Virus record (IMG/VR): IMGVR_UViG_3300049734_000122
Span: 1-26,486 of that record
Source of the DNA: a virus
DNA: 26,486 nucleotides
Direction: 5' to 3' (one strand)
Position numbers and translations under genes: made by a program. Under the pieces are notes generated by a model, which was not told where the DNA came from, ran no database searches, and was given only the letters and a program-made list of their open reading frames with translations. This document shows, piece by piece, positions 2,518 to 19,558 of the stretch; position 1 is the stretch's first letter, and the number at the start of each line of letters is the position of its first letter.

Positions 2518-3053
2518 CGATCCCCGAATTCGACGCGATCGTGGCGACTACGCCGTACGTCAAGAGCGGGATGTTTTTCTCCGAACTGTATTTATTTCTG
2601 TCGCTGTGCAAGCAATTGGCCGTCGATCTGATCATCGAGTCGGGCGTGAAAAACGGCAACTCGACGCGGACCCTCGCGGCCGCGGCCGGCGTGCCCGTGA
2701 TCGCGATCGACTTCAAAAACTTTTGCGCGCCGCTCGCCGGGGTCGAGTTTCGCAAGGGCGACGCGCGCGAGATCGTGCCGGTGCTCCTCGCCGAGCACAC
2801 CGACCGGCGGATCGGGATTCTCCTCGACGGGCCGAAAAACGACAAGGGGCGCGCGCTCAAAGATCGGTGCCTGACCTTTCCGCACGTGCGGATCGTGGCC
2901 TGTCACGACACCTTACCGGGGTTTGGCGAAACGGTGCACAGTCACGATCCCGCGATGCGCGCGGCTCACGCCGCGCTCGATCGCCATATCCCCGATCCCT
3001 TTTACTCGGCGGCGCCCAATGGGCCCGGCCTCGGCGTATGGGTGGCCGCATGA
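2514..3053 (+). CDS. SAM methyltransferase-like protein
   Basis: 179 aa from ATG 2514 (ATGA overlap with the previous stop). It has an IIESGVKNGNST glycine-type loop (40-51), a following acidic strand AIDF (64-67), KGDA (81-84) and LLDGPK (103-108), the order seen in Methyltransf_24/TylF-like and cephalosporin-hydroxylase-like SAM enzymes. The usual E/D-x-G-x-x-x-G spacing is kept. A later CHDT and a histidine-rich stretch could bind metal, as in TylF-type O-methyltransferases. It is the third methyltransferase-like gene of the cassette. Substrate unknown. Confidence 0.65.
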   Translation: MTIPEFDAIVATTPYVKSGMFFSELYLFLSLCKQLAVDLIIESGVKNGNSTRTLAAAAGVPVIAIDFKNFCAPLAGVEFRKGDAREIVPVLLAEHTDRRIGILLDGPKNDKGRALKDRCLTFPHVRIVACHDTLPGFGETVHSHDPAMRAAHAALDRHIPDPFYSAAPNGPGLGVWVAA

Positions 3054-3838
3054 AAGGGCGCGCGTTGACCCTCGTCTTGCCCTACTACCGCAACCGCGGC
3101 ATGTTGCGCGAGCAACAAGCGATCTGGTCAAGCTATCCCGACCCGCTCAAAGCGCGCTTGCATGTGATCGTGGTCGATGACGGCTCGCCGGCCGATGAGG
3201 ACGCGCGCGCGGCCTTCGCGATCGTGCCCGGCCTGGCGTCTCAACGGCTGTTTCGGATCGGGGTCGACATCCGATGGAATTGGCTGGCATGCCGCAACCT
3301 CGGCATGTCGAAGGCCTCGACCGAGTGGGTACTCCTGACCGACATGGATCACGCGATGCCGGTCGAGACCTTGCACGCGCTCACGTCAAAGAAACTCGAC
3401 GATGCGCACGTGTACCGCCTCTCGCGGGTCGACGCGCCGCATCCCTGGCCGTATTCCCTCGAGGCGTGCACGGTGCGCCGGCGCAAGGATGGCTCAATCC
3501 ACATACATCCGAATACCTGGCTGATGACGGTCGACATGTTCGATCGTGTCGGCGGCTACGATGAGCGGCTCTCCGGGTGCTACGGGACGGACGGCGAATT
3601 TCGCGCGCGCGTGACCGCGGCCGCCGGCGTGATCATGCGCGACGAGCCCTTGATCCGCTATCCGCGCGAGGTGATCGCCGATGCCTCGACGGTCGGGTTT
3701 ACGCGCAAACACGATCCCGACAATGACGCCGAATTGAGCCGGCGCCGCCTCGCGCGCGAGGCGCAACAAGGCTGGCGGCCGTTGCGGCTGTCGTTTCCCT
3801 GGACCCTCGAGGTCGAGGCCGGCGAGGTGACGCCATGA
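3050..3838 (+). CDS. family 2 glycosyltransferase
   Basis: 262 aa from ATG 3050, overlapping the previous stop by ATGA. A textbook GT2 signature is present: LTLVLPYYRNR at the N-terminus, VVDDGSP (41-47), an ACRNLGM segment, and the DxD-like LLTDMDH (about 95-101), with an acceptor-side GGYDERLSGCYGTDGEF. No membrane segment is visible, so it acts in the cytoplasm, probably transferring a sugar from a nucleotide donor to a glycan or a virion protein. The stop overlaps the start of the next transferase gene. Confidence 0.85.
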   Translation: MKGRALTLVLPYYRNRGMLREQQAIWSSYPDPLKARLHVIVVDDGSPADEDARAAFAIVPGLASQRLFRIGVDIRWNWLACRNLGMSKASTEWVLLTDMDHAMPVETLHALTSKKLDDAHVYRLSRVDAPHPWPYSLEACTVRRRKDGSIHIHPNTWLMTVDMFDRVGGYDERLSGCYGTDGEFRARVTAAAGVIMRDEPLIRYPREVIADASTVGFTRKHDPDNDAELSRRRLAREAQQGWRPLRLSFPWTLEVEAGEVTP

Positions 3839-4548
3839 GGCCGGCCGCGGTGATCACGTGGAAATGGCGGCCGATCAGCCGGAACTATCGATCGACGTTT
3901 CGCGCCGAGACGGTCAACACGCTGTTTCGGATGGTACGCCGGCACTACCCCGAGCCCTTTCGCGCGGTGTGCGTCACCGACGATCCGCACGGGATCGATC
4001 CGTCGATCGAGATCGTGCCGATCGGCGATCACCTCGCCACGATCCCCAACCCGCACGGGGCCCAGAATCCAAGCTGCTACCGGCGGCTTCGGATGTTTGC
4101 GCCCGAGGCGGCCGACACCTTCGGGCCGCGGTTTGTCTCGCTCGACCTCGACACGGTGATCACCGGCGACCTCGTGCCCTTGTGGGATCGGCCCGAGGAG
4201 TTTGTCGCCTGGGGGGATACCAACCGCGGGACGCATTACAACGGCTCAATGATCCTCTTGACCGCCGGCGCGCGGCCGCGGGTGTGGCAAACCTTCGATC
4301 CGCGCGACTCCCCACGCAAAGCGAAGGCGGCCGGCTGTTTCGGATCCGATCAAGGTTGGATTTCCTATTGTCTCGGGCCCGGTGAGGCGCGATGGGGCCG
4401 GGCCGACGGCGTGTACTCCTATCGCAACGACATCAAACGATCGGGGCGCTTGCCGGCCGGCGCGCGCATTGTGTTTTTTCACGGGCGGATCGATCCCTGG
4501 GCCCGCGAGGCGCAAGCCCTCGACTGGGTACGCGAGGCCTGGCACTAA
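3835..4548 (+). CDS. GT-A-type glycosyltransferase-like protein (copy 2)
   Basis: 237 aa. It carries VCVTDD (45-50), a DxD in LDLDTV (D104, D106), YNGSMI (135-140), GSDQGW (170-175) and a C-terminal FFHGRIDPW. The motif order matches the gene at 1223-1909, making the pair ancient paralogues rather than a recent duplication, because the sequences are well diverged. The start overlaps the GT2 stop (ATGA). It is the last gene of the sugar cassette: its TAA shares its final base with the ATG of the tail terminator gene, which ties the cassette to the tail operon. Donor and acceptor unknown. Confidence 0.7.
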   Translation: MRPAAVITWKWRPISRNYRSTFRAETVNTLFRMVRRHYPEPFRAVCVTDDPHGIDPSIEIVPIGDHLATIPNPHGAQNPSCYRRLRMFAPEAADTFGPRFVSLDLDTVITGDLVPLWDRPEEFVAWGDTNRGTHYNGSMILLTAGARPRVWQTFDPRDSPRKAKAAGCFGSDQGWISYCLGPGEARWGRADGVYSYRNDIKRSGRLPAGARIVFFHGRIDPWAREAQALDWVREAWH

Positions 4549-16862: not shown

Positions 16863-17029
16863 TCGTCGATCAAGAATCGCTCGAGCGCGTTGCTCTCCTC
16901 GGCGAGCAAGCCGGGCTCGAGCCGCTCGGCGAAGGACACCGCGATCGCCATCCACACGGTTTTGCTTGCCTGGACATTGCGCGCCGCGCGCGCATATCCG
17001 TTGTTTTTTTTCCCCTCGCCGTAACTCAT
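16859..17029 (-). CDS. small hypothetical protein
   Basis: 56 aa from ATG 17029, which overlaps the stop of the winged-helix gene by ATGA. It opens with MSYGEGKKNNGYARAARNVQ and continues with one amphipathic helix (TVWMAIAVSFAERLEPG). No known motif. Tight coupling on both sides (ATGA twice) supports it as a true gene of the unit. Confidence 0.6.
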   Translation of the reverse strand: MSYGEGKKNNGYARAARNVQASKTVWMAIAVSFAERLEPGLLAEESNALERFLIDE

Positions 17030-17577
17030 AGTTTCACCCTCGAAAGCGGGCCCTCGCGGTAGTACCGCGCGTGCTCGGCCGCACGTGCGCACCAACGCCG
17101 GCAATAGGTCGCGCGCCATGGGGCCGACTGGCGCCGGCGGGTCGGGGCCGGCATGGGCCCGCCGCACCATGCGCACACCGCCGGCGCCGGCTTCACGGTG
17201 GGCTCGCCGAGGGCGACAAAGCCGGCGCGCGTTTTCTTGAAAAGCTCGGGCCGGCGCCGGATCTCCGTGAGGATCACCGCGTCGATCCGCCGATCGGTGT
17301 TCTGGCCGGTGTGCTCGGCGACCTCGGCTTTCAAGGCCTCGAGCGTAAGGGGCCCTCGAGCCCTGAGCGCGGCCTCGATCCGTTCCCACAAAAACGCATC
17401 GGGCACGGCGACCGGATGGATCAGCCTCGAGTCGAGCGGCTTCCGCGGCCGGCCGCCCTTTGCCCCGTTTGCACGCGAGGAGGCGGCTTTTTTTTCGGTG
17501 CGCGCGAGCCCGCCCTCGCGGCCGATGTCGACGGCATTCTCGGTTGTGAACTGGCGGCCTCGCTGTCGTGTCGTCAT
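17026..17577 (-). CDS. winged-helix and zinc-finger DNA-binding protein
   Basis: 183 aa from ATG 17577, with AGGAG about 12 bases upstream. Three parts: a basic N-terminus with GAKGGRPRKP (38-47, AT-hook-like), a helix-turn-helix/winged-helix-like region (about 62-123, LWERIEAALRARGPLTLEALK... to FVALGE), and a C-terminal zinc-finger-like pattern with C135, C138, C159 and C163. It resembles phage-encoded regulators, with no close family name. It leads a unit of three genes and reads away from the attachment site, so it may be controlled from the attP-side region. Confidence 0.6.
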   Translation of the reverse strand: MTTRQRGRQFTTENAVDIGREGGLARTEKKAASSRANGAKGGRPRKPLDSRLIHPVAVPDAFLWERIEAALRARGPLTLEALKAEVAEHTGQNTDRRIDAVILTEIRRRPELFKKTRAGFVALGEPTVKPAPAVCAWCGGPMPAPTRRRQSAPWRATYCRRWCARAAEHARYYREGPLSRVKL

Positions 17578-17612
17578 TGTCGATCGCTCCTCTCCTGAGA
17601 AACCCAACCGCG

Positions 17613-17629
17613 GGGGCACTAATGGGGCA
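17613..17629 (+). repeat. 17-bp direct repeat, copy A
   Basis: GGGGCACTAATGGGGCA. Identical to copies at 17701 and 17943. Each copy carries GGGGCA twice, 11 bases apart, one helical turn, as expected for a protein bound on one face. Confidence 0.8.
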
Positions 17630-17645
17630 TCCCTGGCAATTCCCC

Positions 17646-17678
17646 TCGCGGTTAGGTTATCAGGTTCGCGGTTAGGTT
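17646..17678 (+). repeat. pair of 13-bp direct repeats, 20-bp period
   Basis: TCGCGGTTAGGTT occurs at 17646-17658 and 17666-17678. A related, inverted copy (AACCCAACCGCG) lies near 17601-17612. The two-turn period suggests cooperative protein binding, for example an excision factor or repressor, between copies A and B of the 17-bp repeat. Confidence 0.65.
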
Positions 17679-17700
17679 TCCAGTAGGTTACTCCCGACTC

Positions 17701-17717
17701 GGGGCACTAATGGGGCA
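17701..17717 (+). repeat. 17-bp direct repeat, copy B
   Basis: Identical to copy A, same orientation, 88 bases away. It lies next to an AT-rich stretch (17717-17750) upstream of the tRNA half. Confidence 0.8.
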
Positions 17718-17780
17718 AATTTTTTACTTACTTTTAATGACGTGTACTGACATTGCACACTTTCCAGCCGTACGGCGAGG

Positions 17781-17806
17781 CGGCCGGATCCTCGCGAATC
17801 CGGCCG
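17781..17806. other. 9-bp-stem hairpin in attP region
   Basis: CGGCCGGAT (17781-17789) is complementary to ATCCGGCCG (17798-17806) with an 8-base loop. It lies beyond the CCA end of the tRNA half. It may be a terminator or a structural part of attP; no T-run decides. Confidence 0.5.
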
Positions 17807-17845
17807 TATTCCGTTGATTTTGTTGAGATTTGCGCGGGTTTTAGA

Positions 17846-17899
17846 TGGTGGACGGCGCGAGGCTCGAACTCGCGGCCTCCGCGTTGCGAACGCGGCGCT
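17846..17899 (-). other. attP: phage attachment site core: 3' half of tRNA-Ala(CGC)
   Basis: On the minus strand this segment has a tRNA anticodon arm with a 5-bp stem and 7-base loop TTCGCAA (anticodon CGC, 17879-17895), a 5-base variable loop, a T arm with TTCGAGC loop (17857-17873), an acceptor 3' strand GCCGTCC (T at position 70 allows the G3-U70 identity of tRNA-Ala), discriminator A and encoded CCA. No D arm or 5' acceptor strand precedes it, so it is not a complete tRNA. It lies 11 bases from the integrase stop: this is how phages that integrate into a tRNA 3' end restore the host gene. Confidence 0.75.
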
Positions 17900-17910
17900 T
17901 TTGAGCGGCT

Positions 17911-19215
17911 TTACTGAGCATTTACGCGCCGTTTGACAAGCCGGGGCACTAATGGGGCACGGGATTTCGCCGGCTGGCGGCGCGCGGCCGGCTTCGAAGG
18001 GGCGGCCTGACCCTTGACCGCCTCGGCGATCGCCTGTCCTGGGCCATCCTGGCGAGCCCGGCGGGCCTTTTCGGCATCGGCCCGATCTTGCCGGCGCACG
18101 ATGTCGATCAAGTGGCTGTCGTGCGTCTGATTGTAAATCTCGAGCACCATGTCGGAATTGGCCCACCCTCCCATTTTGACCACCGCGCCGATCACGCCTT
18201 CGCCGCCCTGCTCGAGCATGCGGGTAACGCCGCTCGAGCGCGTGCCCCAATGGATCGTATTGCCGCCCTTCGCTCGGCCCCACCGGACGCCGGCGGCCTG
18301 GGCCGCGCGTTGAATGGCATGGGCAAGGCCGGTGCGCCGGGTATGCGCGGTCTCGCCGCCGCGGCGTTGCGGAAACAGGTACTCGCCGGCGGTCACCGGC
18401 AAGGCCTCGAGCGCGTGCACGATCTCTTGCGTGGCCGGCACGGTGTAGGGCTTGCCGCCTTTCGGCTTGCTGAACGTGAGCGTATGCCGGCCGGTCGCGG
18501 GGTCGACCTCGTGATCGGTTTTCTTGAGATCGAGCACGCTCGAGAGGCGCGCGAGGGTGTGCGCCATGATCAGCCAGATCGCCCGATCCCACGGGGTCGC
18601 GAGCTTGGCGAGGATCCGATCGTGCTCGGGCTCGGTCATGCGGCGCCGCACGATCGGCCGATCGGTCGTTTTGAGTTTCGCCACCCCGACGAGCGGTGAG
18701 GCCTCGAGGTGCTCGGGCACCGCGCCGGCGAGAATCTGTTTCAAAACATCGGTCTCCCGATTGATCGTGTTATGGCACGGGGCCTTGAGTGTGCGCCGCT
18801 TGCCGGCGGGCCCGCCGAAATGCTCGATGACGGTCGGGGCATGCTTGCGCCACGTGGCATAGTCGGCGAGGTGCGAGGCGCGGATCTCGTGTAGCTGCAT
18901 CCGCCCGAAAAATTTCATGAGGTGCCGGCGGAGGATGCCGAGGTCGCGCGCGGCGCCCTCGCGGTGCGCGATGACGTTCTCGGCGTACCACGTGGCAAAC
19001 GCGGCAAAGCGGATCGGCGCGCGCTTGGCGACGCCGTGCCGCTCGGCGCCCGTCGTACCCATGAGTTTGTGATAGGCCGCGGTCGCGAGGATCTTCGAAT
19101 CCTTCCGCGCTTGCGGCGTGTCACCGACCACGATATCGGTACGAATCTTTTCGCCGGTGACCTCGTTGCGGAGATACCAGAATTTCGGCCGGTCGGGACG
19201 AAACAGGATCCCCAT
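17911..19215 (-). CDS. int: tyrosine recombinase integrase
   Basis: 434 aa. A SAM-like core-binding domain (about 68-165) precedes the catalytic domain with R223 (TLARLSSVLDL), a beta-hairpin lysine (TFSKPKGGK, 247-255), H322 and R326 (IHWGTRSSGV), W351 (GGW, where many have His) and the nucleophile Y361 (EIYNQT). The H-to-R spacing is one residue longer than the usual HxxR. A basic Ala/Pro/Arg/Lys tail (385-434) ends over the third 17-bp repeat. The gene abuts attP and lies 3 bases after a small ribbon-helix-helix-like gene, probably its co-transcribed partner. Gln codons (5 CAA, 10 CAG) differ from the CAA-rich structural genes, a sign of separate ancestry. Confidence 0.9.
   Translation of the reverse strand: MGILFRPDRPKFWYLRNEVTGEKIRTDIVVGDTPQARKDSKILATAAYHKLMGTTGAERHGVAKRAPIRFAAFATWYAENVIAHREGAARDLGILRRHLMKFFGRMQLHEIRASHLADYATWRKHAPTVIEHFGGPAGKRRTLKAPCHNTINRETDVLKQILAGAVPEHLEASPLVGVAKLKTTDRPIVRRRMTEPEHDRILAKLATPWDRAIWLIMAHTLARLSSVLDLKKTDHEVDPATGRHTLTFSKPKGGKPYTVPATQEIVHALEALPVTAGEYLFPQRRGGETAHTRRTGLAHAIQRAAQAAGVRWGRAKGGNTIHWGTRSSGVTRMLEQGGEGVIGAVVKMGGWANSDMVLEIYNQTHDSHLIDIVRRQDRADAEKARRARQDGPGQAIAEAVKGQAAPSKPAARRQPAKSRAPLVPRLVKRRVNAQ
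17943..17959 (+). repeat. 17-bp direct repeat, copy C, inside integrase gene
   Basis: Identical to copies A and B but on the other side of the tRNA half, within the last codons of the integrase (it encodes PLVP on the minus strand). Together the copies flank the attachment core, like arm-type integrase sites. Confidence 0.8.
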
Positions 19216-19218
19216 GGA

Positions 19219-19398
19219 TCACCGGCCGCCTTTCGTGGGGATCGTCGGGATCATGTTTATGTCAACTTGCCCGCCCGCGTACAACGCGAGCAACCGCATG
19301 ATGATCCACTTGATCGGGCGCCCGTCGGCGGCCGCGCGGGCCTTGACGTGGCGCCACAAGCTCGCGTCGATATTGCGCATTTGATACGCCGAGGCCAT
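19219..19398 (-). CDS. small ribbon-helix-helix-like protein
   Basis: 59 aa from ATG 19398 with GGGGAGGG 7 bases upstream. A short N-terminal strand (AYQMRNIDASL) is followed by two helices (WRHVKARAAADGRPIKWIIMRLLALYAGG), the Arc/MetJ/CopG layout, and a short tail. It ends 3 bases before the integrase start, so the two genes form an operon. Small DNA-binding proteins in this place often serve as excisionase or repressor of the integrase; that role is inferred. Confidence 0.7.
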   Translation of the reverse strand: MASAYQMRNIDASLWRHVKARAAADGRPIKWIIMRLLALYAGGQVDINMIPTIPTKGGR

Positions 19399-19468: not shown

Positions 19469-19475
19469 ACCTAAA

Positions 19476-19547
19476 CCACCGGGGCGGGATTCGAACCCGC
19501 ATAACTGACTCCAAGGGCCAGCGTCCTACCGTTTGAACGACCCGGCA
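19476..19547 (-). tRNA. tRNA-Gln(TTG), phage-encoded, CCA not encoded
   Basis: 72 bases fold as: acceptor TGCCGGG (19547-19541) with CCCGGTG (19483-19477), the first two pairs being wobble; D arm GTTC/GGAC with loop AAACGGTA; anticodon arm CTGGC/GTCAG with loop CCTTGGA; variable TTAT; T arm GCGGG-TTCGAAT-CCCGC (19484-19500); discriminator G. Anticodon TTG, U1, G73 and the short D loop are all typical of tRNA-Gln. Position 33 is C where almost all tRNAs have U. It reads CAA, the codon the structural genes prefer. Confidence 0.8.
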
Positions 19548-19558
19548 AAATCAAAACC

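Follow-up and report, generated by a model that had tools for sequence, protein, structure and literature searches.

Introduction

The attP site of phage lambda carries the arm-type sites P1, P2 and P'1–P'3, with the Xis sites X1 and X2 placed 20 bp apart in the P arm. The locus described here lies in a virus record of 26,486 bp (IMGVR_UViG_3300049734_000122), the whole of which is referred to below as the window. It resembles the lambda system in having arm-type repeats on both sides of a core, with neighbours about one helical turn apart, in having int on the P' side, and in carrying additional P-arm repeats at a 20-bp distance. An N-terminal arm domain comparable to that of lambda Int is predicted for the integrase of the window, and the structural matches of this protein include 1z1b and 1z1g. 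In contrast to lambda, the sequence of the boxes is different, the apparent target is a tRNA gene, and each site is a tight pair; no Xis or IHF site was identified, and int contains no arm domain recognised by Pfam.

Pairs of 11-bp arm-type sites are present in attP of the mycobacteriophages of Cluster K, L5 and Giles (PMC3203893), and arm-site pairs flanking tRNA cores have already been described (PMC3203893, PMC10865867). In these mycobacteriophages, as in the window, pairs of about 11 bp flank a tRNA or tmRNA core, and the letters of the boxes vary among relatives along with N-terminal residues of Int (PMC3203893). Their integrases and hosts are different, however, and the pairs in the window are all direct and three in number.

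A further group is formed by Arm-DNA-bind_2 integrases (PF12167, DUF3596) of enterobacterial and Pseudomonas phages. Here too a TGCCCCAnnnnTGCCCC double box is located in the last int codons and, in some members, across att, and one contig of the group (L005) contains the exact 17-bp repeat of the window. These integrases show no detectable kinship with the window integrase beyond the catalytic fold, and the letters common to both, including the 17-mer of L005, are therefore most simply explained by convergence. P4-like arm domains (3rmp, 3jtz) superpose on the predicted window domain at 2.6–2.7 Å over 51 residues, but with a Z score of only 4.3–4.4 and 14% identity.

The window is thus best placed within a divergent phage family, with an attP that is lambda-like and otherwise ordinary, in an arrangement already known in kind. 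No earlier description of this integrase family was found in the literature covered, which lay mostly outside subscription journals.

Results

Three 17-bp Repeats in the Window

Three exact copies of GGGGCACTAATGGGGCA were found in the window, all on the + strand, around a block derived from a tRNA gene and next to int:

17613–17629, + strand: putative distal P-arm site, first copy, GGGGCA-CTAAT-GGGGCA; the extra copy (most relatives have only two double boxes)
17701–17717, + strand: putative proximal P-arm site, second exact copy
17846–17899, − strand: 54-bp attP core, without a mismatch to an Acidobacteria tRNA-Ala(CGC) gene in its 3' part (anticodon arm to CCA)
17943–17959, + strand: third exact copy, putative arm site on the P' (integrase) side, within the final int codons, where it encodes APLVP
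17911–19215, − strand: int, tyrosine recombinase of 434 aa (PF00589, E = 1e-12)

Each copy is built as GGGGCA-N5-GGGGCA, that is, two 6-bp boxes with an 11-bp period (one helical turn), and reads TGCCCC-ATTAG-TGCCCC in the direction of int. Two copies are located to the left of the tRNA-derived block (17846–17899) and one to the right, at irregular spacings of 88 and 242 bp, and the int-side copy encodes ...RAPLVPR... at the end of int. No further site was present in the window at up to three mismatches. The chance expectation for GGGGCACTAATGGGGCA was 0.05 copies on average, and three copies were never reached in dinucleotide shuffles. Identity between the copies ends at about the 17-mer, which indicates that no larger segment was duplicated.

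These results confirmed the original prediction as regards the three positions and their common direction, the presence of GGGGCA twice per copy at helical-turn spacing, and the arrangement of two copies and one about the tRNA part with one of them in the last int codons.

The attP Core and the Probable Host

The core is located between the second and third 17-mer copies. A 41-base core pattern matched 5 among about 85,000 species genomes, all of them Acidobacteria; ARAGORN identified all five matched sites as tRNA-Ala(CGC) genes, and one of them was identical to the window core across the 54 bp (17846–17899). The core is flanked by phage tail genes on the left and by int on the right, so that it appears to be an unintegrated attP and the window an unintegrated fragment of a phage genome.

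The host is probably a species of Acidobacteriota, as the tRNA match suggests. An integrated copy of the window phage was not found in a host genome. When 396 Acidobacteria genomes were searched for the 17-mer with one mismatch, the matches were situated away from integrases and were few enough to be chance.

Two other features of the phage were recorded. A complete tRNA-Gln(TTG) gene is present at 19475–19548 (− strand), a short way upstream of int, and the regions 22–696, 2606–3838 and 3835–4548 (+ strand) match glycosyltransferase/sialyltransferase families near phage structural genes.

The Integrase

Two parts of the integrase are relevant to the repeats:

19036–19215, − strand: predicted arm-binding domain, residues 1–60, beta-beta-beta-alpha (structure prediction)
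17914–18063, − strand: C-terminal extension of roughly 50 residues, absent from the closest relatives, carrying the putative P' site, low pLDDT

The full-length model matched the lambda Int fold in the core-binding and catalytic domains, with Z scores of about 17–18. Residues R223, R326, W351 and Y361 and the HWxTR motif are kept across close relatives. This motif occupies residues 322–326 of the window integrase, and corresponding residues of its relatives, where most integrases have HxLRH; in this family, W replaces the second active-site H.

The N-terminal domain was modelled with pLDDT values of 84–88 across residues 11–50. Arm domains of lambda and of the P4-like type were among its top structural neighbours, but the matches were weak (Z 4.3–4.5), and Pfam arm-domain models gave no match to this domain. 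For PF12167, no match to the window integrase was obtained at E ≤ 5, while one other member of the family alignment gave E = 0.18. Homology of the window arm domain to PF12167 was rejected, the match being weak and only 20 residues long.

Relatives of the Integrase and Their Double Boxes

A protein search of IMG/VR, GTDB, and phage and plasmid collections at first returned no close relatives of the window integrase; these were reached only through the tRNA core search, and the family was then enlarged by two profile scans. Seven loci were obtained from the core search of viral contigs, and at five of these the integrase is related to that of the window (E below 1e-50). The integrases of these same-core relatives are about 34–38% identical to the window integrase, and double boxes of 11-bp period flank the core, written in other letters, e.g., GCGTGAACAATACGTGAATG.

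Some of these loci showed peculiarities of layout. In L284, L285, L287 and L288, the same core is accompanied by a related int on its other side, and the boxes keep their orientation relative to the core, not to int. To the left of the core in L283, three tandem boxes at 11-bp period were observed instead of two, namely GCGTGAATCCA, GCGTGAACAAT and ACGTGAATG.

Repeated direct double boxes at the 11-bp period, counted at a score of at least 22 of 24, were present at 28 of the 49 evaluable distinct integrases (window included), or at 26 of 47 after removal of two contigs that had been counted twice. Eight other periods tested on the same 49 loci gave between 0 and 2 each. A significant double-box pair was absent from 21 of the 49 loci; some of these may have their att sites elsewhere or in degenerate form, or may be fragments.

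The box types of the family comprise TTCCCG, CTCCCG, TTCACG, TGCACA and TGCCCA, as well as TGCCCC of the window, and positions 3 and 5 are nearly always C. The distance between two double boxes was mostly 198–232 bp, with a full range of 165–242 bp. Where the boxes enclose tRNA-Ala (10 loci), 47–50 bp separate the anticodon arm from the end of the near box; in two further tRNA-Ala loci the corresponding values were 31 and 24 bp. Most relatives possess two double boxes, whereas the window possesses three.

Relatives with the same int but without the repeats had been expected to speak against arm-type sites. The exact 17-mer was indeed absent in relatives having this kind of int together with the tRNA-Ala core, but double boxes of equivalent build and position were present. 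The same box build in other letters is the pattern expected of arm sites that co-evolve with the N-terminal domain of the integrase.

The Copy Inside the int Coding Sequence

In nine distinct loci (window included), the int-side box falls within the last int codons, and it is read there in frames 0, 1 and 2, which points to constraint on the DNA rather than on the protein. The resulting peptides are unrelated among loci (APLVP, FPSRS, AHSVH and others). Elsewhere in the family, the int-side box follows closely after the stop codon or is found at a distance of several hundred bases. As judged from these sequences, it is the DNA site that is conserved, and the protein follows.

The perfect conservation of the int-side copy under coding constraint had been regarded as striking. 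The identity is real; the constraint on the protein is probably weak, since this copy is located in the C-terminal extension that the closest relatives lack.

A Second Repeat Set and the Neighbouring Genes

Further features were found beside the two P-side copies and upstream of int:

17601–17612, − strand: inverted copy of CGCGGTT(G/A)GGTT with one change, directly abutting the putative distal arm site
17647–17658, + strand: first direct copy of CGCGGTTAGGTT, candidate site for an excisionase or repressor
17667–17678, + strand: second direct copy of CGCGGTTAGGTT, at a distance of 20 bp from the first, likewise a candidate site for an excisionase or repressor
17718–17740, no strand: A+T-rich stretch next to the putative proximal P-arm site, within an otherwise G+C-rich genome; may be bound by a bending protein
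17026–17577, − strand: gene whose upstream region contains the putative distal arm site
19219–19398, − strand: ribbon-helix-helix-like ORF of 59 aa, directly upstream of int, no family match

The CGCGGTTAGGTT family occurs at 17601–17678, between and beside the two P-side copies, and nowhere else in the window. This second set, together with the third 17-mer copy, is what is unusual in the window. By analogy with the lambda Xis sites, the CGCGGTTAGGTT repeats may serve a directionality factor.

No Xis was identified in the window. The ribbon-helix-helix-like gene was considered as a conserved excisionase and rejected, as it was not found upstream of int in relatives; the part assigned to its product in the original prediction was likewise unsupported, the small gene upstream of int not being conserved. 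The distal 17-mer is positioned about 36–52 bp upstream of the ATG of the 17026–17577 gene, and from this position it may contribute to the regulation of that leftward gene.

The Motif Elsewhere in Viral Contigs

A scan of viral contigs with TGCCCCANNNNTGCCCCA gave at least 124 matches. Among the 124 listed, 71 had the 3' end of an int gene no more than 300 bp away, and in 67 of those the match and int shared a strand; most listed matches belonged to one large group of Arm-DNA-bind_2 integrases. A version of the pattern with a 12-bp period gave 8 of 127 matches near an integrase 3' end; this control is no pure null, several of its int-adjacent matches looking like real sites. A permuted pattern, added as a control, gave 0 of 185 near int 3' ends.

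The exact 17-mer was found outside the window in two other contigs among 2.9 million, L004 and L005. No integrase was present within the 6 kb of the L004 contig, and occurrence of the exact 17-mer by itself is weak evidence.

Two further kinds of double box were noted. In L195, L092 and L180, TGCCCCA double boxes with a 12-bp period are located near integrases, some beside 11-bp ones, which suggests that spacing tolerance may differ between families. Double boxes of AGCCCCTnnnnAGCCCCT are common in viral contigs (L289 onward), often paired about 255 bp apart, and in those contigs they were never near integrases. At L303:5011–5500, such boxes are inside an ORF adjoining a DnaC-like ATPase gene; the AGCCCCTnnnnAGCCCCT boxes may be replication-origin repeats.

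A Possible Arm-Site Code

One position of the integrase appeared to vary together with the boxes:

19147–19149, − strand: K23 codon, candidate specificity residue (post hoc, suggestive)

Over 27 loci, the residue aligned with position 23 varied with box position 4, K accompanying C and R accompanying A: K was present in 15 of 17 C-type loci and R in 9 of 10 A-type loci. Among 766 column tests, this one ranked first (Fisher p = 1e-4, or about 0.08 with Bonferroni correction), but the pattern had been spotted by eye before testing and comprises only three supported independent pairs. The K/R covariation with box position 4 is therefore to be read as suggestive.

A readable arm-site code can be proposed tentatively, although its correctness is rather doubtful at present: the geometry would be fixed, residues of the arm domain, residue 23 first among them, would set box position 4, and several switches of specificity would have occurred. 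A similar proposal linking arm sites and N-terminal residues exists for mycobacteriophages (PMC3203893).

Discussion

The three repeats in attP are, with high probability, arm-type sites for the lambda-type integrase that the phage itself encodes, as far as can be judged from sequence comparison. The original prediction had read them in this way, and the double boxes of the relatives, which match in build and position, give it its strongest support. In the proposed arrangement, the int-side arm (P') would hold a single site and the opposite arm (P) the other two. Each box pair could accommodate two N-terminal domains of the integrase as neighbours on the same face of the helix, and the integrase would bridge the arms to the core, which corresponds to the 3' part of a tRNA-Ala(CGC) gene of the host. 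In an Acidobacteria host, the core would recombine with this tRNA gene and thereby restore the tRNA, and the second repeat set, situated between the P sites, may be where a directionality factor or a repressor acts.

The repeats could instead be operators through which a repressor or autoregulator (the ribbon-helix-helix-like protein, the product of 17026–17577, or Int) acts on the leftward gene and on int; their overlap with attP would then be incidental. The place of the distal copy, about 36–52 bp ahead of the leftward ATG, agrees with this, and there are known cases of an integrase acting at the att region as repressor of its own gene, such as KplE1 IntS (PMC2951348). The int-side copy, however, is at the 3' end of int, which is no promoter position; the relatives keep the distance from core to box though the genes upstream of int differ, and the letters of the boxes change among relatives of shared architecture. 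Taken as an explanation of the repeats, operator function is accordingly unlikely. Autoregulation of Int through its arm sites would not conflict with the reading of the repeats as arm-type sites.

Less probable still is a role as iterons in the replication of an episomal phage or a plasmid-like element. Three identical direct repeats with helical phasing do resemble iterons, but the spacing of 88 and 242 bp about a tRNA-derived att core is irregular, no replication initiator or Rep domain was recognised in the neighbouring genes examined, and in relatives the boxes are consistently paired with integrases. The word iterons, by which the repeats had first been called and which denotes replication sites, is not apt. 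A recent duplication, or chance G+C-rich repeats devoid of function, might be suspected from the perfect identity in a G+C-rich window, but is highly improbable, as shuffles never yield three copies, identity stops at about the 17-mer, and other double boxes fill the equivalent position in relatives.

With the repeats read as arm-type sites, a sequence curiosity becomes a defined attP with a likely target and host phylum. The case also advises caution, as repeats inside int need not mean constraint at the protein level. The integrase relatives with this layout, about two dozen, come from soil phages. With about 25 natural variants, alike in geometry and different in arm-site letters, this one integrase family offers a set suited to the study of how arm-binding domains choose their DNA. 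If the proposed code is true, co-infecting relatives that aim at the same tRNA-Ala gene would share attB, but not arm sites.
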